Below, in pieces: positions 936 through 42,303 of a stretch of 43,118 bases of DNA. The notes under the pieces are model-generated. The model was not told the DNA's origin and ran no database searches. It saw only the letters and a list, made by a program, of their open reading frames with translations. The position numbers were made by a program, and so were the translations under genes. The stretch is from a virus. How positions within the stretch are numbered: the first letter of the stretch is position 1; each line of letters opens with the position of its first letter. The stretch lies in the IMG/VR virus record IMGVR_UViG_3300005158_000001, positions 1 through 43,118 of that record. One strand, given 5' to 3'.

Positions 936-1732
936 TAGAAGGGGAACCATCCATCCTGTTCTGGAGTGTCATAGTAGACAGCTCGTTGCGTCTTGCCTGA
1001 TTGTGTTGTGCAGTTTGGCTTCATGGTACAGAACTTGCACATGTAGTTGGGGTTCGGCTTGGCTACCTTCGATTGAATCTTCTTTTCGAGATCGGCGTAT
1101 ACAGCGCCGATCTCTTCAGGAGTCCTGGTGAACTCAACAAGCTTATGGTTTGGCCCGTAAGGGTTGAGCATCACATACATACCCTTGAACCCCGGCTTGC
1201 CATACAGAGCATTGTATGTTTCCAGCTGAACGCTGTCCTTCTGCCTAGACTTTCCAGTCTTCCAGTCAACGATCAGCAGTCCATGCTTACTGTGTTCCCC
1301 GATCAAATCGGGGAACGCCTTGATTTCCATACTACAGCCAGGAAGATATCCCGTCACATCATGTTCAACGTGATGAACATCCACGTCCTCAAGAAAGACA
1401 ATGGCTTCAGCATAGCAGTCCTGAGCAAGCTTGAGTGCCCTCTCCTCAATCACAGGTGATTCCTTACTACCGCCCGCCAGCCACTTCGAGGTGGCTGGCT
1501 CTACTTCCATGGACTGTTTGACGAGATCCATGAAGTACTCTTCGAGTAGAGCGGGGGAGGGATCTGGGGACTTCGGATCAAGCAACTGCTCTATCATAGC
1601 ATGGACCGTGGTCCCCACGATGAAGTACCACGCAGGAACTGACCACGCCTTCTTCACACGTGACAAGTAGTAGGATCGAGGACAGGAATCATAACTGGTA
1701 AGTGAGCTGTAGGAGATGTGGTCGGGCGTCAT
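935..1732 (-). CDS. Cas4/RecB-family PD-(D/E)XK exonuclease
   Basis: A 265-residue protein with the signature of the Cas4-like RecB exonuclease family. A first Cys is at residue 17 (SCPRSY), a motif-I His at 44 (VGTTVHAMIE), an acidic residue at 142 (FPDLIG), the catalytic DWK at 156-158 (IVDWKTGK), and a QLETY motif at 169. A C-terminal cysteine trio at 232, 235 and 241 (CKFCTMKPNC) should, with Cys17, hold a 4Fe-4S cluster. Family members cut single-stranded or resected DNA ends and act in recombination; phage copies are common and independent of CRISPR. The ATG overlaps the upstream WhiB stop (ATGA). Exact polarity cannot be read from sequence. Confidence 0.88.
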   Translation of the reverse strand: MTPDHISYSSLTSYDSCPRSYYLSRVKKAWSVPAWYFIVGTTVHAMIEQLLDPKSPDPSPALLEEYFMDLVKQSMEVEPATSKWLAGGSKESPVIEERALKLAQDCYAEAIVFLEDVDVHHVEHDVTGYLPGCSMEIKAFPDLIGEHSKHGLLIVDWKTGKSRQKDSVQLETYNALYGKPGFKGMYVMLNPYGPNHKLVEFTRTPEEIGAVYADLEKKIQSKVAKPNPNYMCKFCTMKPNCTTQSGKTQRAVYYDTPEQDGWFPF

Positions 1733-2211
1733 GCAGCAATTCTAGCATGCGACATCGCATCTTTCTGATACTTGCACTCTCGGCACACGAACGCGGCTGA
1801 CCTTGCCATGGTCTTGCGAGCCTTGTACGTGACGGACATGTCTTCAAAGTTCGCGATGCTGTGCAAACCTTTGGAGCATACACCCTTCTCAAGGAGGAGA
1901 TTGTATCGAGCGATCTCCTTCTCGGTGAAGAAGTAGTCTTCAAACAACTTCTTCCTATTAGCACGTGCCCTGGTGGCTATCTCTCCTCGATCTCCACCAG
2001 TCCAGAGGTTGGGAAACTTACCACCGACGATCGTCCAACGGCGATCGTCTTTGCTGGAGTCATTCCAGCACTGCGTCTTTACAGGGCATCGAGAGCAGAA
2101 CCTGTCAACCACGTCAACATGAGCAGCCCTACCTCTTGCGTGGTCAACGTAGAACTCAGATGGATCCTCTCCCACGCATACAGCTTCTTCACTCCAATGA
2201 TCATAGCTCAA
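1729..2211 (-). CDS. WhiB-family transcription regulator
   Basis: The start is a TTG at 2211, chosen because a strong GGAGGAGAAAGC ribosome site lies just upstream. The first 80 residues carry the WhiB pattern: a lone Cys at 12 (AVCVGED), then Cys 39, 42 and 48 in FCSRCPVKTQC, which together ligate a 4Fe-4S cluster, followed by a Gly/Trp turn (GGKFPNLWTGG). WhiB proteins occur in actinobacteria and their phages and bind the primary sigma factor to redirect transcription. At 160 residues this is longer than most. The C-terminal half adds a second cluster of cysteines (CSKG and CRECKYQ), perhaps a zinc site. It lies near a sigma-like gene on the other strand, suggesting a joint regulatory role. 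Confidence 0.85.
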   Translation of the reverse strand: MSYDHWSEEAVCVGEDPSEFYVDHARGRAAHVDVVDRFCSRCPVKTQCWNDSSKDDRRWTIVGGKFPNLWTGGDRGEIATRARANRKKLFEDYFFTEKEIARYNLLLEKGVCSKGLHSIANFEDMSVTYKARKTMARSAAFVCRECKYQKDAMSHARIAA

Positions 2212-2246
2212 AGCTTTCTCCTCCCCAACTCTCTCCCCGCTCCATG

Positions 2247-2270
2247 AGCGGCCCCTTAAGGGGGGCCGCT
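2247..2270. terminator. GC hairpin upstream of the whiB-like gene
   Basis: Nine-base arms AGCGGCCCC/GGGGCCGCT with a six-base loop. There is no long U-run on either side, so it may terminate weakly or stabilise the 5' end of the whiB mRNA. A copy of the dispersed TCCCCGCTCC motif sits immediately beside it (2235-2242). Confidence 0.6.
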
Positions 2271-2489
2271 ATCCAAACATCCAAGCATTCTGAGTCACGG
2301 CACAGCTGTCCTGTTTATGTCGTGAAGGCCGGGGCTTTTGGGCCCCGGCTTCTCTGAGCTGCTGGGATGGCTTTCTTTTCTAGAGCTTGATGGATGGCTT
2401 TTTTCTTGCTCTCCTGCACTTCGTCACGGCCTGGCCTGAGTCTATCACACCGAAAAAGCACCCGGCCAGCACCCGCAGGGTACCCCGCC
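2271..2489. other. Intergenic stretch with a second hairpin
   Basis: About 220 bases without a convincing gene. It holds a perfect 8-bp GC hairpin at 2328-2349 (GCCGGGGC/GCCCCGGC) and a short near-repeat (GGATGGCTTTCTTTTC near 2365 and GGATGGCTTTTTTCTT near 2391). A 35-codon leftward reading frame with a GTG start and a Lys/Ala-rich product can be drawn through it, but it has little support. A leftward promoter for the whiB operon is likely here or just upstream, without a clear consensus. Confidence 0.5.
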
Positions 2490-3466: not shown

Positions 3467-3556
3467 CTGCTTCCATTCCATGCATGGCTGGAATGCATGA
3501 CGCTTGCCATGGTTCAAAGTTTTCATACTGCACATGCGTCTGCCACGGGAGGGTTG

Positions 3557-4261
3557 ATGATTCCCGATAAGTGGGTGGACCAGAGTGCTGCTGTAATCGC
3601 CAGATCGTACAGTGCATGGGTCTCTCGTGACGATGTACAGCAGCACATCTGGAACTGGGTTTACGCACACAAGGAGAAAGTCTCCGAGTATCTCGCTCAC
3701 CAGGACGGTGAGCGGATCATCCGATCCATCCTCAACCAGGAAGGACGTGAATACGCCAACAGGGAGCGTGCCGTGGGCACTGGATACGAATACGAAGATG
3801 TCGCCTGGTACACGATCACCGCAATCAAGCGCATCCTGCCTGACGTATTTGAGTACGCGGACTGGCAGAGCTTTGAGATGCGAAGTGATGGGCCCAGTAA
3901 CAAGCCAGCCGCTTGGAGCGGGGACAAGCTTGCCACACTGATTGACATAAAGTCCGCACTTGAGTCACTTCCGGCGGATCGTCAGGAACTCCTGAGGATT
4001 CACTACTTCGCCGGGATGACGCTCAAGGACACCGCAATCCTTATGGGATTGAAGGAGGACACCGCCAAGAAGCAAATCCAGCGAGCCTTGGCGAAGATGA
4101 GCAAGTATCTCAATGATCCACGGGTGAAGGACCCTATGGAGGGTGCGACATACGAGGAGTGGAAGAAGAACCAGAGGTTCTATGACACTCGAACTCGTGG
4201 TCGCAAGTCCATGAGCAATGCCGCAGCACGCAAGGCTACGGATGGCAACTGGGGGGACTGA
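3557..4261 (+). CDS. Sigma-70-like factor with region 4 helix-turn-helix
   Basis: The ATG at 3557 is preceded by GGGAGGG at 3547-3553. The 234-residue protein has a helical N-terminal half (about residues 10-95, with DDVQQHIWNWV) resembling sigma region 2, and a sigma region 4-like stretch around residues 130-185: ALESLPADRQELLRIHY followed by a helix-turn-helix with MTLKDTAILMGLKEDT. The C-terminal 45 residues are basic and extended. Similar proteins in actinophages are called sigma-like or DNA-binding. It could direct RNA polymerase to phage promoters. The 90-base gap after the phosphoesterase contains ATTCCA/TGGAAT inverted repeats and may carry its own promoter. A start at 3512 is possible but less supported. 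Confidence 0.75.
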   Translation: MIPDKWVDQSAAVIARSYSAWVSRDDVQQHIWNWVYAHKEKVSEYLAHQDGERIIRSILNQEGREYANRERAVGTGYEYEDVAWYTITAIKRILPDVFEYADWQSFEMRSDGPSNKPAAWSGDKLATLIDIKSALESLPADRQELLRIHYFAGMTLKDTAILMGLKEDTAKKQIQRALAKMSKYLNDPRVKDPMEGATYEEWKKNQRFYDTRTRGRKSMSNAAARKATDGNWGD

Positions 4262-5321: not shown

Positions 5322-5500
5322 CAGCTCAACTTCCTTACGGTGACGGTGATTTCGAACAGCTGTCCCCAGTGGTCGTGTACCGGCTCATCCTCGTAGTGGG
5401 ACAGGTATGTACCGACATCAGCGAGGATGTTGTATACGTCCTCGCTGGTGTCCCTGCAATACACCCTGCCGATGGCATCGTCCGGTCTCTTGATGATCAC
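5321..5500 (-). CDS. Small hypothetical protein, 59 aa
   Basis: Two adjacent GTG codons can start it (5503 or 5500); the second overlaps the upstream stop as GTGA and is preferred. The product runs VIIKRPDDAIGRVYCRD through a helix (SEDVYNILADVGTYL) to a final strand (FEITVTVRKLS). No family recognised. It continues the coupled leftward chain. Confidence 0.65.
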   Translation of the reverse strand: MIIKRPDDAIGRVYCRDTSEDVYNILADVGTYLSHYEDEPVHDHWGQLFEITVTVRKLS

Positions 5501-6021
5501 CACTTGTCCCTTCCCTCGAAGTAACTGTCCTTGTAAATCCCGCTGGTATTGATGGGGCCGACGATCCCGAGCCGTTGAAGGTGGATGGACTCACTGATCC
5601 ATGCCTTCGGGTCCTTCTCCTCAGGACGGATCATGTCCCATGCCTCCCTGGGATTGCCAGCAATAGGGATCACCATGAACCTGCCATTGCCTGTCTTGGT
5701 GACGGGGTCGTGCTGCAACCCTTCCCCCGCTCTCCGAGCTTGCAGCTCGGTCGAGAATGGGGCCACGACAACGTGCTTGAGGGCCCCGCCAGGGAGCTGA
5801 ATCTGTCCTACCGCTGCGAACCTTGCCGACTTCTCCCGAGCCGCTTCAGCGGCCTTCAGGGCCATCTCTGCCACGGTTCTGGCAGTCGGCTCGGCTGGCG
5901 GATTCCAGATCATTGGAGTGTGCCACTCCTCAAGGTACAGCGAGTGGGCCTGAACCCACTCGCTGTAATGATCCTTGGCTATGACCTTGGCGGCTGCCGT
6001 TATCTCGGGACTACTTGGCAT
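5497..6021 (-). CDS. Hypothetical early protein, 174 aa
   Basis: A soluble protein. The N-terminal 70 residues are helical and Ala-rich (VAEMALKAAEAAREKSARF); the middle is beta-like (QLPGGALKHVVVAPF); the end is Trp/Pro-containing with a charged tail (YFEGRDKW). The ATG at 6021 lies within the last codons of the upstream paralogue gene, a pattern seen throughout this operon. No catalytic motif or family recognised. Confidence 0.75.
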   Translation of the reverse strand: MPSSPEITAAAKVIAKDHYSEWVQAHSLYLEEWHTPMIWNPPAEPTARTVAEMALKAAEAAREKSARFAAVGQIQLPGGALKHVVVAPFSTELQARRAGEGLQHDPVTKTGNGRFMVIPIAGNPREAWDMIRPEEKDPKAWISESIHLQRLGIVGPINTSGIYKDSYFEGRDKW

Positions 6022-6394
6022 GAGTGGCCGTGCTCAGGGCGTACCCCCACGTACTCCCCATGTCCTGACGCGACTGAGCCATGGAGAAAACGTCCGTGGC
6101 CCCTGGGGTGTAGCTAAGGAGTCCCTGGCCACTGAGATACTCCAGGAGGCGGAAGGCGGGGGAGCTGTCGGCAGCGGATCCACTCATGACGCTCAGAGGA
6201 ATTCCGTACAGGTGGAGCGCCGTCCCGACGATACATCCCGGCTCGGGATTGTCGCTGCGCTGATGGTGCACGTAGACGCAGCCAGTGCCGGAGGTCAGAG
6301 ATTCTTCCGGATTGTTGTAGACGTAATCCCCGCCCTTCAGTTCGACTGCCTTGGCGAGCATCTCAAGTGCCTTGTTCCGGTCAATGTGGAGCAT
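6011..6394 (-). CDS. Tandem paralogue family member A
   Basis: A 127-residue protein starting at 6394 with a TAATG overlap and a GGAGGG ribosome site. It shares a layout with neighbouring genes: a short strand and helix start (MLHIDRNKALEMLAKAVEL), a YVYNN segment, the core GCIVGTALHLYGIPL, a variable middle, and a final QDMGSTWGYA. It is closest to the next upstream gene (6394-6774). The invariant Cys-X-X-Gly and the Trp near the end mark the family. Function unknown; such expansions often reflect binding to varied host targets, which is inference. Confidence 0.75.
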   Translation of the reverse strand: MLHIDRNKALEMLAKAVELKGGDYVYNNPEESLTSGTGCVYVHHQRSDNPEPGCIVGTALHLYGIPLSVMSGSAADSSPAFRLLEYLSGQGLLSYTPGATDVFSMAQSRQDMGSTWGYALSTATHAK

Positions 6395-6774
6395 TACTTT
6401 CCCTCCGGTTCGAAATCGTCCAGACCTGCTGCGTACCCCCAAGGAGTACCCCGATCCTGGCAAATCAGAGTCTCCTGTAGATACTCCGCAGCACTATAGT
6501 CGTAGCGAAGGAGTCCACGATTGCTGAGACTGTCAAGAAGCTCCCAAGCGCTACAGCATGAGAAATCATACATGATGTCCAGCGGGATTCCGCCCAAGTG
6601 CAAGGCGGTTCCTACAATGCATCCGGGAGTGAGAGTTTCTCCGTCGTCCGATGAGTGAACGTTGTAGCAGATCGAGCGGTTGCCATTGGGGTTGACGTAG
6701 ACATAGTCCTTCCCCTTCAAGGCGATAGCCTCCGCGATCAGGCGCTTGGCTGTGTCGAGATCAATGTAAAGCAT
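6394..6774 (-). CDS. Tandem paralogue family member B
   Basis: A 126-residue paralogue of the gene at 6011-6394. Shared blocks are MLYIDLDTAKRLIAEAI, KDYVYVNPN, PGCIVGTALHLGGIPLDIM and CQDRGTPWGYA. Two ATGs lie side by side (6777 and 6774) after GGAGGAGAA; I chose 6774 because it matches the paralogue's start. Extra cysteines (FSCCSAW) are specific to this copy. A strong hairpin follows upstream at 6813-6839. Confidence 0.75.
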   Translation of the reverse strand: MLYIDLDTAKRLIAEAIALKGKDYVYVNPNGNRSICYNVHSSDDGETLTPGCIVGTALHLGGIPLDIMYDFSCCSAWELLDSLSNRGLLRYDYSAAEYLQETLICQDRGTPWGYAAGLDDFEPEGK

Positions 6775-6812
6775 CATTTCTCCTCCCACTCGCCCCGGGC
6801 AGGGCGGGAATA

Positions 6813-6839
6813 CCGGCGTGCCCTTAGGGGGCACGCCGG
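6813..6839. terminator. Strong GC hairpin between early gene groups
   Basis: Eleven-base perfect arms CCGGCGTGCCC/GGGCACGCCGG with a five-base loop, lying between the helix-turn-helix gene (ends 6848) and paralogue B (starts 6774). Neither side has a U-run, so partial termination or mRNA end-protection is as likely as full termination. Confidence 0.6.
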
Positions 6840-6847
6840 CAAACCTG

Positions 6848-7192
6848 TCAGCCCGAGATGATGCTCTCAGCGCAAGCCTCGGCCTTTTCGGCACGCTCGG
6901 AAAGGCGGGAGATCGTCAGGCTGGCTTCCTCAAGGAGAGCCTGAAGGTGGTCGTACTCCAGCTCGGAGTAGGTCTTCGCCTTCGCCTTCTTCTCTCGCTG
7001 GAAGGCGGCACGCACGGCCTCAAGGTCGGAGCACAGGAAGAACTTCATGTTGCCTTCCTGGTGGGCGGGAGTGATCTCTCCGCCCTTCTCGATGTACTTC
7101 TTCAGCCAGCTGGCCACGGTCTGGGGCGTAGCTCCGATGCGGTGGGCGAAGCCGGAAGCGGTTTCGGCATTGGCGCCGTTGATGGTGATCAC
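6848..7192 (-). CDS. Helix-turn-helix DNA-binding protein with coiled coil
   Basis: A 114-residue protein from a GTG start at 7192, with GAGGAG nine bases upstream. Residues 12-35 (ASGFAHRIGATPQTVASWL) form a convincing helix-turn-helix, followed by a wing-like segment and a charged helix. The C-terminal third (YDHLQALLEEASLTISRLSERA) is a coiled coil suggesting dimerisation. It could be the phage's early regulator or an excisionase-like architectural protein. No repressor or integrase is otherwise evident, so it is a candidate for the control of the early genes. Confidence 0.7.
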   Translation of the reverse strand: MITINGANAETASGFAHRIGATPQTVASWLKKYIEKGGEITPAHQEGNMKFFLCSDLEAVRAAFQREKKAKAKTYSELEYDHLQALLEEASLTISRLSERAEKAEACAESIISG

Positions 7193-7194
7193 GA

Positions 7195-7590
7195 TCAGAT
7201 CTCCTCATTGTTGTCGCCAGCAAAGAAGTCATATCCGAGCCCGGCGAGCCTGTCGTGCGCACAGGATGCCGCTTCGGCAGCGCTGTGCGCTTCACTCCAC
7301 GTACTGCCTGCGTCCTGAAGTATCTGGGCTGTCTTCATGGCGATAAAGGCGGACCGGGTGAACTGGGCATGTCCTTCACTGCGAAGAATTACCGCAGTGT
7401 ATTCGACAGTTCCAGTAGGGGGGATGTGTTCGATTCCCCCAAGAAGATCAGCCAGAAGAGTTCCCACGAGACAGATCGGCTTCACTTCATCGTGGTTCAC
7501 GCAGTGTCCTTCTTGGACGTATCCAGCAGGCTTGCCCTCAACTGCTCGGCGCATGGCGCCGAGCACGTCGAAAGAATTGATGATGCGCAT
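7195..7590 (-). CDS. Tandem paralogue family member C
   Basis: A 131-residue protein starting at 7590 (MRIINSFDVLGAMRRAVEG) after AGGAGATCTGAC. It is very similar to the next upstream gene over its first 110 residues: KPAGYVQEG, ICLVGTLLADLLGGI, FIAMKTAQILQDAGSTW. It shares the Cys-X-X-Gly core and Gly-Ser-Thr-Trp motif with members A and B. The divergent acidic tail ends DNNEEI. Function unknown. Confidence 0.78.
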   Translation of the reverse strand: MRIINSFDVLGAMRRAVEGKPAGYVQEGHCVNHDEVKPICLVGTLLADLLGGIEHIPPTGTVEYTAVILRSEGHAQFTRSAFIAMKTAQILQDAGSTWSEAHSAAEAASCAHDRLAGLGYDFFAGDNNEEI

Positions 7591-7591
7591 G

Positions 7592-7966
7592 TCAGATCTC
7601 CTGATCAAAAGCGATCGACCTGGAAAGGAGGTATGAAGCGACCGCCAAATCGGCAGCCTTGTATGCTTCGGCCCATGTGCTACCCGTGTCTTGAAAGTTC
7701 TGGGCAGTGTTCATCGCGATGAAAGCGGCCTGAGTGAAATCCGCCACGCTGTTGGTGCGGAGTTCCAATACGGCGGCGCGGGCGGGTCCCCTGGGGGGAA
7801 TGTCAGCGATTCCCCCGAGAAGATCAGCCAGAAGAGTCCCCACGATGCAAATCGGCTGTTCGCCATCGTGGTTAATGCAGGGCCCTTCTTGGACGTATCC
7901 AGCGGGCTTGTTTTCGACTGCGCGCGCCATTGCCATGAGCACCTGACTGTAGTTGATGATGCGCAT
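7592..7966 (-). CDS. Tandem paralogue family member D
   Basis: A 124-residue close relative of member C, starting at 7966 (MRIINYSQVLMAMARAVEN) with GGAGATCTGAC upstream; the 5' regions of C and D are also nearly identical in DNA, which indicates recent tandem duplication. Shared motifs include CIVGTLLADLLGGI and FQDTGSTWAEA, and both end with an acidic EI. Function unknown. Confidence 0.78.
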   Translation of the reverse strand: MRIINYSQVLMAMARAVENKPAGYVQEGPCINHDGEQPICIVGTLLADLLGGIADIPPRGPARAAVLELRTNSVADFTQAAFIAMNTAQNFQDTGSTWAEAYKAADLAVASYLLSRSIAFDQEI

Positions 7967-7967
7967 G

Positions 7968-8198
7968 TCAGATCTCCATTTTCTTGAGCTCTCGGCATTC
8001 GCCGATTGCGAGTATTGCCGACTTCTGTGTCCTGAGCGGGAGGGAAGACCAGTCCGAGTTGGGGATGCGCCAGAACCAACCAGCGCCCTTTCCCCACATC
8101 TCGCACATCCATCCGACCACAGCACCGCCGTCCTTCAGGTAGACGGCGGTGATTCCCTTGCTTCCACGTTTGCCGACCGTGAACATGCAGCGGTTCAT
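7968..8198 (-). CDS. Hypothetical early protein, 76 aa
   Basis: An aromatic-rich small protein (GWMCEMWGKGAGWFWRIP) with a basic beginning (MNRCMFTVGKRGSKG). The ATG at 8198 overlaps the upstream stop (ATGA). The second half (SAILAIGECRELKKMEI) looks helical. The Trp/Gly-rich centre suggests a compact beta fold, possibly binding nucleic acid. No family recognised. Confidence 0.65.
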   Translation of the reverse strand: MNRCMFTVGKRGSKGITAVYLKDGGAVVGWMCEMWGKGAGWFWRIPNSDWSSLPLRTQKSAILAIGECRELKKMEI

Positions 8199-8984: not shown

Positions 8985-9328
8985 GCGGATTGAGTTTTCA
9001 AGGACCTGTGCGACCTTCAGGAGTTCAACCCCCCGGTGCCTTGCTGTGGTGCGACCCTCTCATTCGAGGGGTTCTACTGTCAAGAAACTCATTCGGCTGG
9101 ACTGGAGAGGCTCTGTGATCAGTTCCCGGTATCCACTGTGTGGCGTACTGCGGGAGCCGAACCACTGTCTCCTGCCTGCTTCGTGCTGTCCTGACGAGAA
9201 GAACATTACTCAGGCCGAACCATGGGGGGAATCACCACAGAGTAGTTTTTGAACTACTTTGAGTTATTGGTTTGACTCCACCGTTGAATATTGAACAATA
9301 TGCTCAGGATCAGCTCAATGGAGCGGGG
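8985..9328. promoter_or_regulatory. Intergenic region with promoter and palindrome
   Basis: About 345 bases without a convincing gene. It contains a hairpin AGTAGTT/AACTACT (9241-9258), and a rightward-facing promoter candidate TTGACT (9272-9277) with CAATAT (9296-9301) 18 bases on. The -10 overlaps a palindrome ATATTGAACAATAT (9288-9301) that could be an operator. Leftward transcription toward 8882 probably starts here. A rightward 89-codon frame from 8983 has an AAGGAG site, but its codon content looks random. Confidence 0.5.
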
Positions 9329-9356
9329 AAAGAAAAGCGGAGCCCGAAGGCTCCGC
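9329..9356 (-). terminator. Rho-independent terminator, leftward
   Basis: Read leftward: GCGGAGCC, loop TTCG, GGCTCCGC, then TTTTCTTTC. The stable UUCG tetraloop and T-rich tail make this the most classical terminator in the leftward half. It follows the 56-residue gene ending at 9362, and a copy of the dispersed GAGCGGGG motif (9321-9328) lies directly at its tail. Confidence 0.85.
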
Positions 9357-11977: not shown

Positions 11978-12026
11978 TCCATGCTCTTATTACACTACAA
12001 CTCTATCAACTTCTAGGAGTTGTTAG

Positions 12027-12055
12027 AGAGCTAAGCCCCTAAAGGGCTTAGCTCT
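12027..12055. terminator. Twelve-base-pair leader hairpin
   Basis: Arms AGAGCTAAGCCC/GGGCTTAGCTCT with a five-base loop, about 45 bases downstream of the predicted start of the 11949 promoter. It may terminate or attenuate that transcript; the U-run is poor. A weaker hairpin immediately before it could compete with it. Confidence 0.6.
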
Positions 12056-12097
12056 AATGTACTTGAAGTGTAGTAAAGTGCAGTGATCTGTAAGTAT

Positions 12098-12106
12098 TGC
12101 TATGAT
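12098..12106 (+). promoter_or_regulatory. Extended -10 promoter, TGCTATGAT
   Basis: TGCTATGAT places TG one base before TATGAT, the same extended -10 form as the 2683 promoter (TGGTATGAT). No -35 is visible. It would give a late transcript starting near 12113, at the foot of the hairpin at 12108-12131. Confidence 0.55.
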
Positions 12107-12107
12107 T

Positions 12108-12131
12108 GGCGAACCCTTTTAGGGGTTCGCC
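12108..12131. terminator. Leader hairpin after the 12100 promoter
   Basis: Nine-base arms GGCGAACCC/GGGTTCGCC with a short T-rich loop. It overlaps the expected transcription start, so it is more likely a leader or 5'-end structure than a terminator of that RNA. Confidence 0.5.
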
Positions 12132-12182
12132 TTCCTGATGCTATTGATGCTCTGTCCCTTGGGGAATCTTCTCCCCGCTCCA

Positions 12183-12212
12183 AAGAGTCTGGCCCATAAA
12201 GGCCAGACTCTT
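12183..12212. terminator. Twelve-base-pair hairpin ahead of terminase
   Basis: Perfect arms AAGAGTCTGGCC/GGCCAGACTCTT with a six-base loop, directly after a copy of the dispersed TTCTCCCCGCTCC motif (12173-12180). It lies 90 bases upstream of the terminase start, in the late mRNA leader. Attenuation is possible. Confidence 0.55.
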
Positions 12213-12301
12213 GTACTCAATGAAGCTTTCAAATTGACGCGTCTATACCGTCAAGCGGCTTCGCCGATATACGGTCACTACGCGATATTAGGGAGTTCGA
12301 A

Positions 12302-14212
12302 TTGGGAAAGTATGTCAAGAAGGAATTGAACACTCCGCAGAAGAAGCGAGCGTTCCATCGACTTGTTCAGGAAGGCGTCGGCCGCACTCAGGCGGCCGAC
12401 GAAGTGGGTGTCACTCTTCAGGCGGTGAACTACTGGCGTCAGTCGGACATGGACTTCCGTCAGGCTGATGACAGGCTGCGTGAGGTGAGGCGTGAAGTAC
12501 AGCCCGAGGCTCGCAAGGACATGCCGAGCTTCGAAGAGTTCTGTGACACATACCTCGATACGAAGCTGTTCAATCACCACCTTCAGTGGATCGACATGCT
12601 GGAGGGGAAGGAACCCAGGAACCTTCATCCAACGGCTCAGCGGTACATCAAGGGTGAACCTGAATTCATTCTGATCAACACTCCTCCCGAGCATGCGAAG
12701 TCAACGACGATCACGACCAACTATGTGACGTACCGCATCTGCGAAGATCCGAACATCCGTATCATCATCGTGTCGCAGACTCAGGAGATGGCCAAGAAGT
12801 TCCTTCGTGGCATCAAGGATCGCCTCTCCAGTCCCAACCCGAACTATCGTAAGCTTCAGATCCAGTTCGCGCCTGACGGTGGCTTCGCTGCCAACAGTGC
12901 CTCATGGACTGCGGACTCGATCTATATTTCATCTGACCTCCGAGACTCCGGTGAGAAGGACCCTACGGTTCAGGCTCTGTCGATCGGCGGTCACATCTAT
13001 GGTTCCCGTGCTGACCTGATCATCCTCGATGACTGCGTGACAGGAAAGAACGCACATGAGTATCAGAAGCAGATGGACTGGCTTCAGCGTGAGGTGTACA
13101 ACCGTCTGTCGTATCCTGGCGGTGTTGTTCTGCTTGTGGGTACTCGGTTGGCTCCTGTTGATCTTTACGGTGAGATCGTAAAGGACGAGTACTACGGCGA
13201 GGAGTCCAGTCCCTGGACCTACTTGAGTCAGCCGGCAGTACTTGAGTTCGATGAGGATGTCAGCAAGTGGAAGACATTGTGGCCGTACACCAACCGACCT
13301 CCTGTCACAAAGATCGGTCGCTCTCTGGTTGCGAAGACCGAGGATGGCCTGTATCCCATGTGGACGGGCGAGGCGCTCAGAAAGCGCCGCGCCTCTATGA
13401 GTCCAAGGAACTGGGCTCTCGTCTATCAGCAGGAACAAGTGGTGGAAGATGCCATCTTCAATCAGAAGGCTGTACTGGGCTCTGTTGATGGAGGGCGCAG
13501 TCCTGGCCCTATGCCTGCTGGAACTTCAGGTGGACGGGAGCGGGGAACAGAGGGTTGCTACATCGTCGGAGGTTTCGACCCTGCGGTGACCGGCCACTCT
13601 GCGGCTGTTGTCATCGCCATGGACAGGCGGACGGGCATCCGATGGGTTCTGGATGTCTGGACTTCGCCGACCAAGCCCGACGAGATCTTCGACAAGATCA
13701 AGGAATGGACCATCAAGTACAAGATCAATGAGTGGCGTATCGAGAAGAACGCCATGAACCTGATGGTCACCCAGAACCGTGAGATCCGAGAGTTCCTCGC
13801 CACTCGCGGATGCCTGCTTCGTGAGCACTTCACCGGATCGAACAAGTGGGATTCCGATTTCGGTGTCGCTTCCATGTCCGTTCTGTTCGACGGGTGGGAG
13901 CAGAAGCGACAGCTCATCCGTCTACCCAACAAGACCAATGAGGGCATACGGGCGCTGATCGAGCAGCTGACCACATGGGAACCCGATCCTCCCGGCGTCA
14001 AGTCGAAGCGCAAGACGGACTGCGTGATGGCTCTGTGGTTCGCTGAGATCCGGTGCCGTGAACTTGTGGATGAGATCAGCAGGGCCGAGGAGACACACTT
14101 CTTCAATCCGTATCTGAGTGAGCGTGACAACAGTCGCAGGGTGAGTATCGATCTGGACTACATGAGTCAGGCGGCTATCAGTGATGATCCGAACAGCTGG
14201 TGGGCAGCATGA
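12302..14212 (+). CDS. terL: Terminase large subunit with N-terminal HTH
   Basis: A 636-residue packaging motor. A TTG start is used, with GGGAG six bases upstream. Residues 10-50 (GVGRTQAADEVGVTLQAVNYW) form a helix-turn-helix like that of small terminases. The ATPase follows, with a Walker A variant TPPEHAKSTT (127-136) and Walker B LIILDD (239-244). The RNase H-like nuclease begins with GGFDPAVTGHSA (Asp426). The enzyme cuts concatemers and drives DNA into the prohead through the portal. I see no separate small-terminase gene nearby, so the N-terminal HTH may provide DNA recognition; this is inference. It is the first late gene, followed by the lysis genes. Confidence 0.93.
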   Translation: MGKYVKKELNTPQKKRAFHRLVQEGVGRTQAADEVGVTLQAVNYWRQSDMDFRQADDRLREVRREVQPEARKDMPSFEEFCDTYLDTKLFNHHLQWIDMLEGKEPRNLHPTAQRYIKGEPEFILINTPPEHAKSTTITTNYVTYRICEDPNIRIIIVSQTQEMAKKFLRGIKDRLSSPNPNYRKLQIQFAPDGGFAANSASWTADSIYISSDLRDSGEKDPTVQALSIGGHIYGSRADLIILDDCVTGKNAHEYQKQMDWLQREVYNRLSYPGGVVLLVGTRLAPVDLYGEIVKDEYYGEESSPWTYLSQPAVLEFDEDVSKWKTLWPYTNRPPVTKIGRSLVAKTEDGLYPMWTGEALRKRRASMSPRNWALVYQQEQVVEDAIFNQKAVLGSVDGGRSPGPMPAGTSGGRERGTEGCYIVGGFDPAVTGHSAAVVIAMDRRTGIRWVLDVWTSPTKPDEIFDKIKEWTIKYKINEWRIEKNAMNLMVTQNREIREFLATRGCLLREHFTGSNKWDSDFGVASMSVLFDGWEQKRQLIRLPNKTNEGIRALIEQLTTWEPDPPGVKSKRKTDCVMALWFAEIRCRELVDEISRAEETHFFNPYLSERDNSRRVSIDLDYMSQAAISDDPNSWWAA

Positions 14213-14547
14213 GCAGGCATGGCGACATGTGGGCCGACAGGCTCACGAGTGCGATGGGCTCATGGCGGTTCATCATCGTTCAGGCTTTCATCATGATCTG
14301 TTGGGCTGTGTTCAACTGCCTGTATCTGTTCAGGCCGCTGTGGTTCGACCCATATCCGTTCATCTTCATGAATCTGGCTATGAGTGCTCAGGCGGCCTTC
14401 ACTGCTCCGATCATTATGATGAGCAGCAATCGCGCTGCGGCTTCGGACCGCAGCGCCCTTATACATGACGTGAAGCTCGATGAGGAATCCTTGGAGATCC
14501 TCAAGCGAATAGAAGACAGGATCAATGAAGCTCATCAGTCGAAGTGA
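14209..14547 (+). CDS. DUF1003-like membrane protein, possible holin
   Basis: A 112-residue protein starting at 14209 by an ATGA overlap with terminase. It has the DUF1003 pattern: an ADRLTSAMGSWRFI start, a first hydrophobic segment (VQAFIMICWAVFNCLYL), FDPYPFIFMNLAMS, a second segment (AQAAFTAPIIMMSSNR), then a charged helix (LDEESLEILKRIEDRI). Two transmembrane helices with a cytoplasmic C-terminal coil are expected. Its position directly before the amidase suggests a holin-like or membrane role in lysis, although DUF1003 proteins are not proven holins. Confidence 0.8.
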   Translation: MSRHGDMWADRLTSAMGSWRFIIVQAFIMICWAVFNCLYLFRPLWFDPYPFIFMNLAMSAQAAFTAPIIMMSSNRAAASDRSALIHDVKLDEESLEILKRIEDRINEAHQSK

Positions 14548-15196
14548 ACTCGGGTGGCCTCCCACCGCATCCGCCTACTGGCCTACGGCCAAGGGCGTGA
14601 AGATCCACTATGAAGGCACTCCGGTCCACATCACGGACCACTCGCAGTGTGCAAGTCACTGGACCAACATTCGAAATTCCCATCTGGCGAACACCGCAGA
14701 AGGATATGTCGATGTCGCCTACAACTTCGCTGTCTGCCTGCACGGATACGTGCTTGAAGGTCGAGGACTCCGACACAAGACCGGAGCCAATGGAAACCAG
14801 ACTTTGAATGGCGATCACTACGCTGTGGTCGCCTTCCTTGGTGATGACGGTGACACTCAGCCAACGCAGGACATGCTTAACGGTCTTCGTGACGCCATTG
14901 AGTACTTCCAGGCCAACGGAGCGGGGGGGGAGATCAAGGGTCACCGGGATGGCTACGCCACTTCGTGTCCTGGAGACAATCTGTATTCGTGGATCACGTC
15001 CGGTGCTCCACGCCCAATTACTAACGAAGGATTTACTATGGATCAGGAAGCTCGTGAGTGGTTCGGTCAGCTGAACTCCATGGCATGGGGAACTAAGAAC
15101 GACCTTGCCGATGTCAAGATTCTGCTTGGCGACATCAAGACTGTCCTCTCCTTGATCGAGGCCAAGCTCCCTTCCCCCGCTCCAAAGGTTAGCTAA
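14525..15196 (+). CDS. N-acetylmuramoyl-L-alanine amidase (endolysin)
   Basis: A 223-residue protein of the amidase_2/PGRP fold, which cleaves the bond between muramic acid and the peptide stem. Zinc ligands are expected at His28 (VKIHYEG), His140 and Cys148 (GHRDGYATSCPGD), matching T7 lysozyme His17, His122 and Cys130. The conserved AYNFAV motif is at 65-70. After residue 163 a helical tail follows (ARPITNEGF... WFGQLNSMAWG), which may target the cell wall or self-associate. No signal peptide, so release depends on a holin. It overlaps the upstream membrane-protein gene and the portal gene. Confidence 0.9.
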   Translation: MKLISRSELGWPPTASAYWPTAKGVKIHYEGTPVHITDHSQCASHWTNIRNSHLANTAEGYVDVAYNFAVCLHGYVLEGRGLRHKTGANGNQTLNGDHYAVVAFLGDDGDTQPTQDMLNGLRDAIEYFQANGAGGEIKGHRDGYATSCPGDNLYSWITSGAPRPITNEGFTMDQEAREWFGQLNSMAWGTKNDLADVKILLGDIKTVLSLIEAKLPSPAPKVS

Positions 15197-16989
15197 TGAG
15201 CCGATCCCTTGCAGAGGTGGCCCGCAAGGTCAGGGCCCTTAAGGATGCCGCCCGTGACAGGGATCAGCGCATGCGTGACCTACGGGACATTCGGTCCGGC
15301 GACATTGATACGGTCATGCCTGGCACGATGCCCGAGCCATGGCCGTATCCTGTCGTGGCCAACATGATCGATACTGTTGCCCGTGACACATCCGAAGTCA
15401 TGGGGCAGATGCCAGCCATCAACTGCACCAACTCCATGCAGACGAGCGAGCGGAGCCGCAAGTTCTCGTCTCGTCGCACCCGCATCGCCAATCATTACCT
15501 GATCGCAAGCAGGATGGCATCCGGTGAGCAGATCAAGTTCTGCGATCACTACATGTCATACGGCATGGCGATCTACATGGTGGAACCCGACGTCTGCAAC
15601 AAGACTCCAGTCATCCGTGTCGAGAATCCGATCGGAGCGTATCCAGAGTTCGACATCTTTGGAAACCTCCGTTCGTATTCGAGGATGTGGCGGGAAGAAG
15701 CGATCAGTCTCGTATCCAAATATCCGTTCCTCATGAGTGTTCTGAATCGGACCGACACCTATGGTCGGTCCGTCGATGGAGGATGGGAGGAGAGGGAGAT
15801 CGAGATCTGCAAGTACATGGACAAGGAACAGATCGTCCTCTACCTCCCCGCTCACAGCAACACTCTTGTTGACTACATGGAGAACGTTCTTGGTGAGCTG
15901 ATGATCTCCATCGCGATCAGGCCCTCCTATGATGAGCAGATCCGTGGAGCGTATGACGATGCCAAGTGGGTCTACTTGGCGAAGTCGCGCATGGCCATGC
16001 TGGGGCTTGAAGCTACTGAGAAGTCTGTCCGTGCTCCAATCGCGGTTCCTCGCGATCTACAGAAGTATCAGGCTGGTGCTGACTCGATTCTCCGGACCGA
16101 CAGTCCGGAGAAGATTCGTCGTGTAGGTGTTGACACGCCACAGTTCGCGGCTCAGGAGGAACAGCTTCTTGAGCGTGAGCTTCGCATCAGCACTCGCTCT
16201 CCAGAGGCAAGAAGCGGAAACGTCAATGCCAGTATCATCACCGGCAAGGGTGTCGAAGCGCTCATGGGCGGCTTCGACACTGTCATTACCACTGGACAAC
16301 AGGTGGTCGGTCAGGCGTTGATGCGCGCGCTTGAGTTCTGCTTCGGCATGGACGAGATTCTCTGGGGTGAAGAGAAGAAGACCATTCGAGGAGTGGTGCA
16401 GGGCACGCCGTTCGAGGATACGTACATTCCGAGTAAGGACATTGACGGTAACCACAAGGTTGATGTCACGTATGGATTCGCGGCCGGTCAGGATCCGGCC
16501 CGCGCCATTGTCGGCATGCTTCAGCTTCGGGGCGACGACCTGATCTCCAGGGACTTCGTTATGCGTCAGCTCCCGATGGAGATCGATGTTGTTCAGATGC
16601 AGACTCAGATCGATCAGGAACACTTCGAGGATGCGCTCAAGGCGGGCATTCAGGGAGCGATGCAGGCCATCCCCCAGATGGCCTTGCAGGGCATGGACCC
16701 TCTCGATCCGCTCATGAAGATGGCAAAGGTTGTCCAGCTTCGCGAGAAGGGTAAGCCGGTGCATGAGGCAGTCCTTGAAGCATTCACCCCACCAAAGCAG
16801 CCAGAGGCCCCTCAGGGGCCCGAACAGGCAATGCCAGGACCCGAAGGCCAGGCTGCGCCTCAGGGCGCGCCTGGCATGCCTTCACAGGCTTCTGCTGGCG
16901 GACGTGACGTCATGCAGATGCTAGCCTCTCTCAGGTCTTCTGGTCAGGCTACGATGAATACCCGAACTCGCAGGGAGCAGAGCATTTAA
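15196..16989 (+). CDS. Portal protein
   Basis: A 597-residue protein placed straight after the packaging and lysis genes, with the length and composition of actinophage portals. The N-terminus is charged and helical (ARKVRALKDAARDRDQRMRDL), followed by a conserved-looking PEPWPYPVVANMIDTVARDTSE block, beta-rich wing and crown regions, and a Gln/Pro/Gly-rich C-terminus (residues about 530-590). Twelve copies form the ring at the capsid vertex that admits DNA. It starts with a TAATG overlap. Call based on position, size and layout. Confidence 0.8.
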   Translation: MSRSLAEVARKVRALKDAARDRDQRMRDLRDIRSGDIDTVMPGTMPEPWPYPVVANMIDTVARDTSEVMGQMPAINCTNSMQTSERSRKFSSRRTRIANHYLIASRMASGEQIKFCDHYMSYGMAIYMVEPDVCNKTPVIRVENPIGAYPEFDIFGNLRSYSRMWREEAISLVSKYPFLMSVLNRTDTYGRSVDGGWEEREIEICKYMDKEQIVLYLPAHSNTLVDYMENVLGELMISIAIRPSYDEQIRGAYDDAKWVYLAKSRMAMLGLEATEKSVRAPIAVPRDLQKYQAGADSILRTDSPEKIRRVGVDTPQFAAQEEQLLERELRISTRSPEARSGNVNASIITGKGVEALMGGFDTVITTGQQVVGQALMRALEFCFGMDEILWGEEKKTIRGVVQGTPFEDTYIPSKDIDGNHKVDVTYGFAAGQDPARAIVGMLQLRGDDLISRDFVMRQLPMEIDVVQMQTQIDQEHFEDALKAGIQGAMQAIPQMALQGMDPLDPLMKMAKVVQLREKGKPVHEAVLEAFTPPKQPEAPQGPEQAMPGPEGQAAPQGAPGMPSQASAGGRDVMQMLASLRSSGQATMNTRTRREQSI

Positions 16990-17132
16990 TGCATGACAGT
17001 CAGGACTGTCCGTACGCCAAGTACATTGGCGTACCAACTTACAAGATCACCGATGAATCCAAGAACGATCTGTGTGGCTTCTGCCATGCTCCTTGGACTT
17101 CCATCACCAAGCCAACCCGAGGGAGTAAGTAA
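16989..17132 (+). CDS. Short putative zinc-binding protein, 47 aa
   Basis: Read directly: ATG at 16989 overlapping the portal stop (TAATG), TAA at 17130-17132. The product starts MHDSQDCPYAKYIGV and has a C-terminal LCGFCHAPW. Three cysteines and nearby histidines could form a zinc site. It is basic at its end (TKPTRGSK). Phages of actinobacteria often carry such mini-proteins next to the portal; function unknown. Confidence 0.65.
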   Translation: MHDSQDCPYAKYIGVPTYKITDESKNDLCGFCHAPWTSITKPTRGSK

Positions 17133-17133
17133 T

Positions 17134-17409
17134 ATGCCCGGTCCCAACAGCCAGGCCATGTATGAGGCGAATCTTCAGGAAGGTATGATCTTCGCCGATC
17201 ATCCTGCCGCTGGTGTGTGGGAGTCGCTTCAGGGCACTCACTGCGCCACGTGGGAGATCGAGACCATGGAGTCTCGATCTGAGGGTACCAGCCGTCACCA
17301 GGCGCCCACCAAGTCTCCCGAGTGGGATTCCACCATCATCGTCCACACTCTGACCACCGGACCTGACGGGTCCGGTGCTCAGTATCGATCGCACATCCCG
17401 AACCACTAA
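17134..17409 (+). CDS. Hypothetical head-region protein, 91 aa
   Basis: The ATG at 17134 follows GGGAG at about nine bases. The protein has a short helical beginning (NSQAMYEANLQEGMIF) then a mixed beta and polar section, and two Trp residues. No family recognised. Its place between portal and the internal-protein genes suggests a virion or assembly role. Confidence 0.65.
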   Translation: MPGPNSQAMYEANLQEGMIFADHPAAGVWESLQGTHCATWEIETMESRSEGTSRHQAPTKSPEWDSTIIVHTLTTGPDGSGAQYRSHIPNH

Positions 17410-17418
17410 GGAGTAGAT

Positions 17419-22900: not shown

Positions 22901-22903
22901 CGA

Positions 22904-38555: not shown

Positions 38556-38683
38556 TCCTGATAGTAAGAGTAAGAACCGTACTCCTTGGCGATATCACTA
38601 GCATCGAATTCATCAATGAATACAGCTCGAACCACGCCGGGATCATCTTCGAGATGAGACTCAAATACTAGATACACCTTCAC
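38540..38683 (-). CDS. Small hypothetical protein, 47 aa
   Basis: Read directly: GTG at 38683 overlapping the primase stop (GTGA), TGA at 38540. Starts VKVYLVFESHLEDDPG and has FDASDIAKEYGSYSYY, an alpha-beta design seen in many actinophage mini-proteins (KVYLVFES then a helix). Function unknown. Confidence 0.65.
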   Translation of the reverse strand: MKVYLVFESHLEDDPGVVRAVFIDEFDASDIAKEYGSYSYYQEWDLQ

Positions 38684-39339
38684 TTGATCATCTCCCTGAT
38701 TGCGTCCGAGCCATGCTTGAGGTACGTACTGTTGGAATCTTCGCCGGCAGGGAACGGGACCACTACAGCCTTGCTCCCCATCTCCTTCTGGACCTTGCGC
38801 CCCAGCTTCTCCCCGCTCTCGTCACCATCGGTGAGGCAGAACACCCTGCGGAAGTCCGAGAGAATGTGGGTCCACCAGGGATGCCAAACCCCGGAGCCTG
38901 GCACTCCAACTGAGGGTATCCCACACAGATCTGAGACAGTGATCTCATCGATCTGACCCTCGACCACGACAATGTCAAGGGCGTCCGAGAGGATCGACTG
39001 CACTCCATACAGAAGCTGAAGCTGTCCCGATGGGTTCATGTACTTGCTGTGCTTGGGAATCTCCCTGCACTTGTGGTCTTCGATGCACCGGAATGTGATG
39101 CCTACCGGCCCGAATTGCGTGATGTACGGGATGGCAAGCCTTCCACGCACGTTCCTGTGTTCAGGAATCGTCGGACTCGACACATAGCCAAGTCCTCTTG
39201 AAAGCGCTGTATCCTTCCCAATTCCCCGCTGAGCCAGATACGGAAGAACGTAGTCCACGTCCGTCGCGTACGACTTCACCGCCAGTTCCAGTGATTTCCT
39301 CTGCTCGTCTGACAGCACTCCGATAGTCCAACCCTTCAT
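38680..39339 (-). CDS. Primase, Toprim domain part
   Basis: A 219-residue frame with a DnaG-type Toprim domain: VVVEGQIDE (Glu127) and CLTDGDESGEK (Asp171, Asp173), plus YLAQRGIG at about 35. These are the catalytic residues of RNA primer synthesis. It lacks a zinc domain, which lies in the overlapping frame upstream (39161-39544). No ribosome site precedes the 39339 ATG, and its first 22 residues do not look like a natural start, so I think it is reached by a +1 frameshift from the zinc-domain frame. Confidence 0.8.
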   Translation of the reverse strand: MKGWTIGVLSDEQRKSLELAVKSYATDVDYVLPYLAQRGIGKDTALSRGLGYVSSPTIPEHRNVRGRLAIPYITQFGPVGITFRCIEDHKCREIPKHSKYMNPSGQLQLLYGVQSILSDALDIVVVEGQIDEITVSDLCGIPSVGVPGSGVWHPWWTHILSDFRRVFCLTDGDESGEKLGRKVQKEMGSKAVVVPFPAGEDSNSTYLKHGSDAIREMIK

Positions 39340-39544
39340 GCTTCATGAGTACCTGAACTGCATTGCCGCTGATCTCGCAGGCATGGCAGTGGAATACTTC
39401 TTCATCTTCGGTTCGGAGGGAGGCTGAGGCATCGCTGTCGTCATGGAAGGGACAGCGGACCGGGTGCCAACCCCGGTCCGCCTCAACAGGTTCTCCGCCG
39501 TAATGCTCGATGATTGGCCCGATCGGGAACCTTGGGAAGTTCAT
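39161..39544 (-). CDS. Primase, zinc-binding domain part
   Basis: A 127-residue frame with the CHC2 zinc-ribbon of DnaG primases: CPFHDD (Cys31, His34) and FHCHAC (Cys53, Cys56), then VLMKHEGLDYRSAVRRAEE, the usual linker helix. After about residue 88 the sequence turns Ser/Arg-rich and no longer primase-like, as if it had left the true frame. The Toprim part continues in the +1 frame over the same DNA, overlapping by 179 bases. Confidence 0.8.
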   Translation of the reverse strand: MNFPRFPIGPIIEHYGGEPVEADRGWHPVRCPFHDDSDASASLRTEDEEVFHCHACEISGNAVQVLMKHEGLDYRSAVRRAEEITGTGGEVVRDGRGLRSSVSGSAGNWEGYSAFKRTWLCVESDDS

Positions 39545-40809: not shown

Positions 40810-40902
40810 TTACGCCTCCTTCTTGCAGTACTTGCACTGATACTTACCGGAGGTGCCTACGGGCTTGTAAACGTGGGGAGGGCACATGCCGTTGTCACTC
40901 AT
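40810..40902 (-). CDS. 30-residue zinc-ribbon-like peptide
   Basis: Read directly: ATG at 40902, TAA at 40810, with GGAGG just before the next gene. It carries CPPH and CKYC (MSDNGMCPPHVYK, YQCKYCKK). With 30 residues it is one of the smallest genes in the window. The strong ribosome site of the following gene lies in its last codons. Confidence 0.6.
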   Translation of the reverse strand: MSDNGMCPPHVYKPVGTSGKYQCKYCKKEA

Positions 40903-41122
40903 GGCGGAAGAAGTCCTCTGTCTCGATGGCGGCTCGCGCGAATACGCGCTGAACGAAGTAGTCCTCAGCTATCCAAGGATCAAGCGATTCGTCGTACGGA
41001 ATCTCGAACTTGGCAATCTCTCCAGCTCCGACGAGATATGCGGTAACCGTGAATGGGCTGCTCGGATCGTCCCAGTCCTTAGGCTCCCACGAAAAGTCGA
41101 AGATCTTGAACTTGCCCCTCAC
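40895..41122 (-). CDS. Hypothetical early protein, 75 aa
   Basis: GTG start at 41122 overlapping the upstream stop. Begins VRGKFKIFDFSWEPKDW, then beta strands (PFTVTAYLVGAGEIAKF) and a helical end (DYFVQRVFARAAIE). An acidic-aromatic alpha-beta fold. No family recognised. Confidence 0.65.
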   Translation of the reverse strand: MRGKFKIFDFSWEPKDWDDPSSPFTVTAYLVGAGEIAKFEIPYDESLDPWIAEDYFVQRVFARAAIETEDFFRHE

Positions 41123-41247
41123 TTGACCACCGTCCAATTCATTCCGGGGTTTTCGGTAAAGACCTGACGAGTGAAGCAGTGTATGCACATCATGAATCCA
41201 CCATCCCGACGGGCGTAGTGCCGCCCGTCGGGAGAGATTGCGCACAC
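41119..41247 (-). CDS. Putative zinc-ribbon protein, 42 aa
   Basis: The reading frame carries CAISPDGRHYARRDG and MMCIHCFTRQVF, a plausible zinc ribbon. The start is uncertain: a GTG at 41247 keeps the first Cys, whereas an ATG near 41194 would remove it. A strong GC hairpin (arms CCCGACGGGCG/CGCCCGTCGGG) is present at about 41207-41234 within this gene or just before it. Confidence 0.45.
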   Translation of the reverse strand: MCAISPDGRHYARRDGGFMMCIHCFTRQVFTENPGMNWTVVK

Positions 41248-41272
41248 CCTTATCGGTATGGACGTAACCTTC

Positions 41273-41476
41273 CTAGAAGACACGCCGGAAACCTCCGCTG
41301 CTGCTCGGGTCGTACGGCTGGCTACGCTGCTTGATGTCGGTTTGGCAATCCTTGCATGCAAGGTAGCTTTCGCGGTGGCAGCTGTAGTGCGGGTCGGAAG
41401 AGTTGGGAGGATACGTCGGCTTGGGAGGATACGCGGAATTCTCGGAGTCCTTCGGCTTCTTCTTGAACAGTCCCAT
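41273..41476 (-). CDS. Small hypothetical protein with possible zinc site, 67 aa
   Basis: The start at 41476 overlaps the helicase stop (TAATG); an ATG two codons earlier is closer to the AAGGG site. After a basic beginning (MGLFKKKPKDS), a Pro/Tyr-rich stretch leads to CHRESYLACKDCQTD with three cysteines and a histidine. The C-terminus is Ser/Gly-rich. No family recognised. Confidence 0.6.
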   Translation of the reverse strand: MGLFKKKPKDSENSAYPPKPTYPPNSSDPHYSCHRESYLACKDCQTDIKQRSQPYDPSSSGGFRRVF

Positions 41477-42303
41477 TACCATTCACCCTTCTCGGAGTTA
41501 TCGATCTTCATGTTTTCTGGAACACTCGGTCCGTCATGAAAGATGAGACCATCGTCCGGGTCTTCATCTTCGATTCGGCATACGGCCGCATCGACAGGTA
41601 GAGTGAAGTAGGTGTCGCCAGTCTCATCACTGCTACCGTTTCGATTCTTGACGATAGCATACTGCATCTTGCTGTTGCGCATTACCTGAGTGACGATCAG
41701 TTCTGGAAGCTGATTGGCCTTGCCCATGATCGAAGACTTGGGAGGGCAGTGGTCGAACTTGGCACTCTCGCTCGTGTGATGCACTACCATCATGGCCGTG
41801 TTCTGAGATGACGCAACCTCCTTAAGAGCGGGGAAGAGACGCCAATAGTTCTGCTCGGCCACACCGTCATGCTCCACGTTCATGGCAATGTCAACCACTG
41901 TGAGCGATGGATACTGGCCGTACACTTCCCGGAACGCCTCTCCGTACATCGCTATCTCCTCAAGGTCAGGGGACGAGGAGAAGTCCCATCGCACCATCCA
42001 CAGCTGGCTGAGCGCGTTGTACGCCTGATCAGGGCTGGACTCAAGGATGCCTGCCGCGATCTTTGGATCGACACCAGTAAGCATGGAGAACGCACGCTTG
42101 ACAATGGTGTATCGAGTCGAGTCGTTGGAGAAGTAGAGAGTGGGGACACGTAGCTGGTTGACGATGTTGAGACTGCTGATCGTCTTCCCGCTCCCTGGCG
42201 GTCCTGCAAGGACAGACACGGCACCACGGTACAGCTGTGCCCCCGCCCGCTCCCACTTCTTGAACGGGTACGGTAGCGGCATGGATGATTCCATGCCGTC
42301 CAT
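41476..42303 (-). CDS. RecA-fold ATPase, DnaB/RadA-like helicase
   Basis: I chose the ATG at 42303 (MDGMESSMPLPYPFKKW), just downstream of a 43-residue gene. Walker A is LAGPPGSGKT (residues 34-41), a Walker B-like LTVVDIA occurs in the middle, followed by MMVVHHTSESAKF. This is the RecA core of a hexameric replicative helicase or helicase loader; at about 275 residues it lacks a long N-terminal domain. The neighbouring primase supports a replication role. Confidence 0.8.
   Translation of the reverse strand: MDGMESSMPLPYPFKKWERAGAQLYRGAVSVLAGPPGSGKTISSLNIVNQLRVPTLYFSNDSTRYTIVKRAFSMLTGVDPKIAAGILESSPDQAYNALSQLWMVRWDFSSSPDLEEIAMYGEAFREVYGQYPSLTVVDIAMNVEHDGVAEQNYWRLFPALKEVASSQNTAMMVVHHTSESAKFDHCPPKSSIMGKANQLPELIVTQVMRNSKMQYAIVKNRNGSSDETGDTYFTLPVDAAVCRIEDEDPDDGLIFHDGPSVPENMKIDNSEKGEW

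Follow-up and report, generated by a model that had tools for sequence, protein, structure and literature searches.

The 43,118-base window analysed here, which comprises a whole virus record (IMGVR_UViG_3300005158_000001) and carries a 40-base direct repeat at both ends, contains the 8-base word CCCCGCTC in 14 exact copies, seven on each strand. The word is enriched, it is spelled differently in different lineages of related phages, it is neutral towards strand and genes, and its sites turn over in place while their density stays. In addition, it forms part of an anchor element upstream of the terminase large subunit gene (terL). The best explanation is that the word may well be a recognition site in duplex DNA that is selected for its density, read by a putative phage-encoded factor that would serve DNA processing rather than gene-by-gene control of transcription.

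Enrichment of the word in the window

Against the 14 copies observed, 100 dinucleotide shuffles of the window yielded a mean of 2.0 and a maximum of 7, and Markov models predicted 1.2-2.1 copies (orders 1-4) or 4.6 (order 5). Among all 8-mers, the word ranks first under orders 2 and 3 and third under order 1. A first-pass annotation, made from the sequence alone, had already described the word as over-represented against a chance count of one to two, which agrees with our figures, and its exact copies were found where it had placed them; the two near copies that it added could not be traced. It had also proposed codon-preserving shuffles as a test, and the motif survives them: a count of 14 was reached in 0 of 400 codon-synonymous shuffles (mean 4.3, maximum 8, three intergenic copies held fixed) and, with a second gene call, in 0 of 300 (mean 5.2, maximum 9). 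Thus, the word is favoured beyond what amino-acid sequence and codon use account for. Gene calls throughout came from a simple in-house model which cut some starts short.

The copies share a pyrimidine-rich 5' flank, given that YYYCCCCGCTC is found in 12 of the 14 and YYYYCCCCGCTC in 11, while the exact 13-mer YTYYCCCCGCTCY of the first-pass annotation is present in only 7. Only one of the 24 one-mismatch words, TCCCGCTC, lies clearly above expectation (11 versus 2.9, window and its relative G002 taken together). A different word, AGTCCATG, is over-represented in the window as well, with 14 places on both strands versus 2.8 expected, at none of the predicted gene starts. Our literature search, which for most papers did not extend to the full text, met no description of CCCCGCTC as a phage word. 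The 14 copies are situated as follows (ORF, open reading frame):

1549-1556, minus strand: inside the exonuclease ORF 935-1732; the aligned codons of the relative G011 contain CCCCGTTC
2235-2242, plus strand: between genes, in the region upstream of the WhiB-like gene, with a hairpin at about 2247-2270
3916-3923, minus strand: antisense in the sigma-like gene
5725-5732, plus strand: antisense in ORF 5497-6021 (function unknown)
9321-9328, minus strand: intergenic, immediately preceded by a hairpin and T-run (about 9329-9356)
12173-12180, plus strand: within the anchor element
13538-13545, minus strand: antisense in terL
14919-14926, minus strand: antisense in the endolysin gene; kept in G002
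15175-15182, plus strand: end of the endolysin gene
15846-15853, plus strand: in the portal gene; kept in G006
22321-22328, minus strand: antisense in a gene for 1623 amino acids
30550-30557, plus strand: in a gene for 158 amino acids
38811-38818, plus strand: antisense in the primase gene
41826-41833, minus strand: in the DnaB-like helicase gene

The hairpins which the first-pass annotation had noticed beside the copies at 2235, 9321 and 12173 were all seen in the sequence, and the copy at 15175, which it had placed at a gene end, occupies the final codons of the endolysin gene.

Lineage spellings

Relatives were gathered via terL, the capsid and the metallophosphoesterase; 29 records including the window were built, and six genomes of the subfamily Beephvirinae were added. 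Ten further candidate stretches examined as relatives turned out to be unrelated. The window forms a clade of six genomes with G002, G006, G011, G423 and G424. All six are enriched in one kind of word, in which the letters that follow CCCCG vary by lineage. The window and G002 use CCCCGCTC (14 and 9 copies) and have no CCCCGTTC at all, and the main form in the other four is CCCCG[AT][CT]C, with the following letters after CCCCG:

G006: TTC 11, ATC 11, ACC 4, CTC 4
G011: TTC 11, ATC 6, ACC 6, CTC 3
G423: ACC 7, ATC 6, TTC 5, CTC 1
G424: ACC 7, TTC 4, ATC 2, CTC 1

For five members of the clade, none of 300 codon-shuffle runs came up to the count of the word that is typical of the lineage. Copies of the combined word CCCCG[ACT][CT]C outnumber those of the reversed word about 3- to 10-fold in the window (23/3), G006 (31/3), G011 (29/9), G423 (23/5) and G424 (14/3). 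Six Beephvirinae genomes in contrast hold 1-5 copies of CCCCGCTC versus 1.5-1.8 expected.

As the spelling varies with the phage lineage, the phage itself most likely encodes the reader, which would change along with it. The spelling differs among phages whose terminases are 74-82% identical to that of the window, a change that appears faster than would be expected for the site of a host enzyme. Words in G425, G427, G433-G435, G437 and G441 (TCCCCGC, CTCCGC[CT]) may represent further dialects. TCCCCGC in G427 and G437 and CTCCGC[CT] in G435 were each matched by 0 of 300 codon shuffles, with the words defined after looking, and because their form was chosen in this way they were left out of the site counts below. 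In G435 (L224-L226), CTCCGC[CT] occurs 66 times in 47.5 kb, and 66 is reached by 0 of 300 codon shuffles.

Placement, orientation and turnover

Counted with the combined-form words, the six clade genomes comprise 109 sites, 54 of them on the plus and 55 on the minus strand. With respect to genes, 50 sites are sense and 39 antisense (p 0.29), and 20 are intergenic versus 24.1 expected (p 0.42). They are evenly spread in five genomes (Kolmogorov-Smirnov p at least 0.56), and the window is borderline uneven (p 0.05). An earlier count with narrower words gave 36 sense, 33 antisense and 23 intergenic among 92 sites in eight genomes; outside this sum, it gave 25/24/17 in G435 and 10/5/8 in G437. In these placement counts the copy at 1549 is listed as intergenic, because the gene calls shortened the exonuclease ORF 935-1732; once it is placed there, the intergenic copies of the window number three, not four.

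Within genes, the sites are rarely kept at homologous positions. The comparison with the five other clade genomes covered ten of the window's 11 intragenic sites, 9 of them being alignable in at least one genome, and retention was seen in 3 of 35 aligned comparisons; site 5725, whose gene has no match in these relatives, was excluded. For example, at the helicase site the window encodes FPAL with the word, and the aligned residues in G006, G011, G423 and G424 are MPEL. Conservation at homologous positions, which the first-pass annotation had suggested checking, therefore divides: the site upstream of terL is kept, whereas the intragenic sites turn over. It would follow that selection maintains the word at a certain density genome-wide and not at fixed places. 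Because the sites show no regard for strand, direction of transcription or gene boundaries, we infer that their reader would act on DNA as such, be it in replication or recombination, in protection or packaging of phage DNA, or in coating the whole genome.

The element upstream of terL

The features in question are the following:

12161-12181, plus strand: anchor element GGGGAATCTTCTCCCCGCTCC, about 120-140 bp upstream of terL, containing the copy at 12173-12180
12183-12212, no strand assigned: terminator-like hairpin directly after the anchor, seen in the sequence and absent from the terminator scan list
12302-14212, plus strand: terL (PHROG 38), the gene behind the anchor

The longer element reads approximately GGGAATC-N4-CCCCG, and the dispersed word corresponds to its 3' part. 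The start of terL was found in 40 records and upstream sequence was available in 38, of which 230 bases were searched. The anchor pattern (GGGAATC-N3/4-YCCCG and close forms), which was written after inspecting these upstream sequences, matches 30 of the 38 records compared with 582 of 7600 random windows taken from these records (8%); one match (G426) is by eye not the element. Among the eight unmatched records, G434 and G443 have the close form GGAATACCTCCCCG by eye, and in G002, L009, L011 and L026 the 3' part, including CCCCGCTC, is retained. G435 carries three CCTCCGC words just upstream of terL, one of which forms a hairpin, and in G439 no anchor form was seen by eye upstream of terL. 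The 3' part of the anchor follows the spelling of its own lineage, with CTC in the window and TTC in G006, G011 and G423 (G002 has the 3' part only). The hairpin after the anchor is also present in G002, G006 and G011; pairing of the anchor arms was viewed by eye only and covariation is not claimed.

If the 14-base anchor of each genome is used as query with up to three mismatches, 8 of 24 genomes (the window, G002, G006, G011, G423, G433, G437 and G447) exceed all 40 simulated genomes. G424, in which no terL start was found, lies outside this test. In the six Beephvirinae, the anchor is located 523-574 bases from the left physical end, outside the terminal repeats of 253-276 bases. The dispersed word would thus be the 3' part of an element that stands once, fixed, upstream of terL in most of the phage group, and the reader might start from this anchor or also act there.

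Candidate proteins and genome context

The terminase of the window is 68-70% identical to those of the Streptomyces phages FlowerPower, Immanuel3 and WRightOn, which are classed under Beephvirinae. Its gene order resembles that subfamily too: structural genes lie on the plus strand from terL (12302) to about 37 kb, and replication and early genes lie mostly on the minus strand, the metallophosphoesterase and a sigma-like gene among them on the plus strand. Genes that deserve attention as potential readers are:

3497-4261, plus strand: sigma-70-region-4 (sigma-K-like) protein (PHROG 354, PF08281), a family-wide DNA-binding candidate
1729-2211, minus strand: WhiB-like protein (PF02467 above cut-off), a second DNA-binding candidate
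935-1732, minus strand: PD-(D/E)XK (RecB/Cas4-like) exonuclease (PF12705, PHROG 69)

The sigma-like protein has a tblastn match in 26 of 30 records, five Beephvirinae included. A protein of 140 amino acids (42492-42914) beside the helicase may be similar to single-stranded-DNA-binding proteins, a label which stems from its position and a reading of its sequence, as no profile matched. The first-pass annotation had seen no obvious repressor, in line with our scan of 45 window ORFs with PHROGs, the other ORFs lying outside it, which revealed neither a repressor nor an integrase. Besides, an Rfam scan at gathering scores detected one tRNA, and four early ORFs at 6011-8125 match PHROG 572 (function unknown). 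The primase at 38680-39544 is split over two overlapping frames, a TOPRIM part and a second primase part, and is annotated likewise in WRightOn.

Other repeated words were encountered in the relatives. The palindrome GTCTAGAC is strongly enriched in L010, L011 and L090 (G002, G003 and G018): in the 13 kb of G003 it scores 12 counts over both strands, equivalent to 6 places, with 0.17 expected, and in G002 three of its four places are intergenic. It is also present in G011 and G423, and absent from the window. Beephvirinae words of the type CTCTCTCCC were first taken as the same motif and then rejected; many of their early-region copies adjoin a start codon by eye. In the same genomes (L099-L104), an extended ribosome-site-like word, approximately ACAAGGGAGAGA, stands by eye beside many early gene starts and resembles a start-associated sequence. 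Repeats around TGTCCG..TTTGCCC were seen by eye near the right end of three of them (L099, L103, L104). The start-associated sequences of Cluster K mycobacteriophages are short words repeated over a phage genome as well; however, they stand at gene starts, whereas the words of the window's clade are mostly intragenic.

Alternative explanations

A Chi-like role survives best among the alternatives, yet we consider it unlikely. Here, GAGCGGGG and its dialects would turn a host helicase-nuclease of the RecBCD, AddAB or AdnAB type from degrading phage DNA towards recombination. Like Chi in coliphages, the word is short, asymmetric and G-rich, of similar density (about 0.3 per kb) and found on both strands and within genes; it is an 8-mer, gene-neutral, and its sites turn over. 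Coliphages without recombinases over-represent Chi, virulent T5-like ones included (Bobay et al., 2013, PMC3784561). Among 18 genomes, a few contain the longer form GAGCGGGGRRAR two to three times as often as its reversed control (G114 42/13, G053 26/12, G136 39/18). However, Chi is shared with the host genome, and no clear enrichment was found in 396 Actinomycetota genomes: none with more than 100 copies of GAGCGGGG lay above about 1.7 times the reversed control, as judged by eye in a set that may not include the host. In the host search, DNA shared with positions 12000-25000 of the window gave matches in 82 of these genomes, with a gene-level similarity of 64-96% among the matches listed, mostly over short stretches. 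Three genomes with distant terL relatives, one of which (G025) is common to the 396, are even below control for GAGCGGGG (1074/1526, 922/998, 343/406). Furthermore, GAGCGGGGRRAR attains at most 42 copies in 2.9 Mb among the 18 genomes versus 7 in the 43 kb of the window, and the spelling shifts between related phages.

That the anchor belongs to a terminase recognition region and that one packaging protein binds both it and the dispersed words is less probable still. The anchor does lie upstream of terL and, in the six Beephvirinae, near the left physical end and outside the terminal repeats. However, dispersed copies on both strands are ill-suited to a single initiation site, and these same six genomes lack the dispersed excess. 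A pac or cos site occurs once, at the end of a genome or close to it, in contrast to the 14 dispersed copies of the window; the anchor alone could qualify as such a site.

We think it distinctly improbable that the copies are stoperators, sites where a phage repressor blocks transcription, although the first-pass annotation had pointed to this likeness. The stoperators of Cluster A mycobacteriophages (L5, TipsytheTRex) are asymmetric sites of about 13 bp in many copies with lineage-varying spelling (PMC5559632), and the sites of the window are likewise asymmetric, numerous and about 13-15 bp long; moreover, three intergenic copies adjoin hairpins. Thus, an asymmetric genome-wide word that fits a sequence-specific binder stands from that comparison, while intergenic position and orientation do not. 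Stoperators lie between genes and are aligned with the direction of transcription (PMC9283540, PMC5721134, PMC5559632), those of L5 functioning in one orientation only (PMC9283540), and they are bound by an immunity repressor. In contrast, the 109 clade sites are mostly intragenic and show neither intergenic preference nor orientation bias, and no repressor or integrase was found among the 45 ORFs scanned. Membership in the L5 type was consequently rejected on position and orientation.

A promoter element of the phage sigma-like factor is very unlikely: conservation of the sigma-K-like gene throughout the group and the single copy of the word upstream of the late operon speak for it, but 44 pooled sites lack a second box within 60 bp, with only isolated weak columns, and copies stand inside genes on both strands. 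We give next to no credence to a by-product of codon or composition bias, for which other enriched 8-mers such as AGTCCATG and the fairly high permuted-word control in the window might speak, given that the codon shuffles fall short in five clade genomes and that the anchor carries the lineage's spelling.

A proposed density-selected recognition site and its meaning

We therefore return to the density-selected recognition site. Word and pyrimidine-rich 5' flank together (about 15 bp) would form the site recognised in double-stranded DNA. Several observations weigh against this explanation. The TTC word of G006 is borderline, being reached by 1 of 300 codon shuffles, and the combined word of G002 amounts to 11 versus 10 for the reversed one. 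The permuted control CCGCC[ACT][CT]C counts 14, 8, 16, 11, 7 and 8 versus 23, 11, 31, 29, 23 and 14 for the combined word (window, G002, G006, G011, G423 and G424), and since it is fairly high in the window and G002, the excess there is modest. In G445, 47 of 300 codon shuffles attain the observed count; this genome therefore shows no enrichment by that test and was not counted as a dialect. G001-G004 and G018 share their site flanks almost letter for letter and thus do not provide independent support. With the anchor as query, 16 of the 24 genomes do not exceed the null, all six Beephvirinae included, and with up to two mismatches G006 only ties it (3 versus a maximum of 3). Furthermore, the function of the anchor does not need dispersed sites, because the six Beephvirinae possess it without dispersed excess. 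Finally, no binder of the word was identified, and nothing links the sigma-like or the WhiB-like protein to it; the former is shared by phages that have the dispersed word and phages that lack it, and, as far as could be seen, it varies in step with kinship.

A more specific version can be offered only tentatively. The word might act as a genome-wide self-tag. Both strands would keep it at a set density, even where this alters a protein, and a factor encoded by the phage, with a specificity that drifts along with the lineage, would read it, so that phage DNA could be told from that of the host and of rival phages. A density-kept word with dialects is familiar from the DNA uptake sequences of the Neisseriaceae, which are kept by density, not place; these, however, serve DNA uptake by cells, and we know of no phage counterpart, no search having been aimed at one.

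To our knowledge, dispersed phage sites either resemble operators, with a set place and orientation, or, like Chi, are common to phage and host. A site selected for density, with dialects that go with the phage lineage, would, if true, add a third type of behaviour. The related phages offer natural pairs of near-identical sites that are one base apart, which should be useful for finding the reader and its specificity code.

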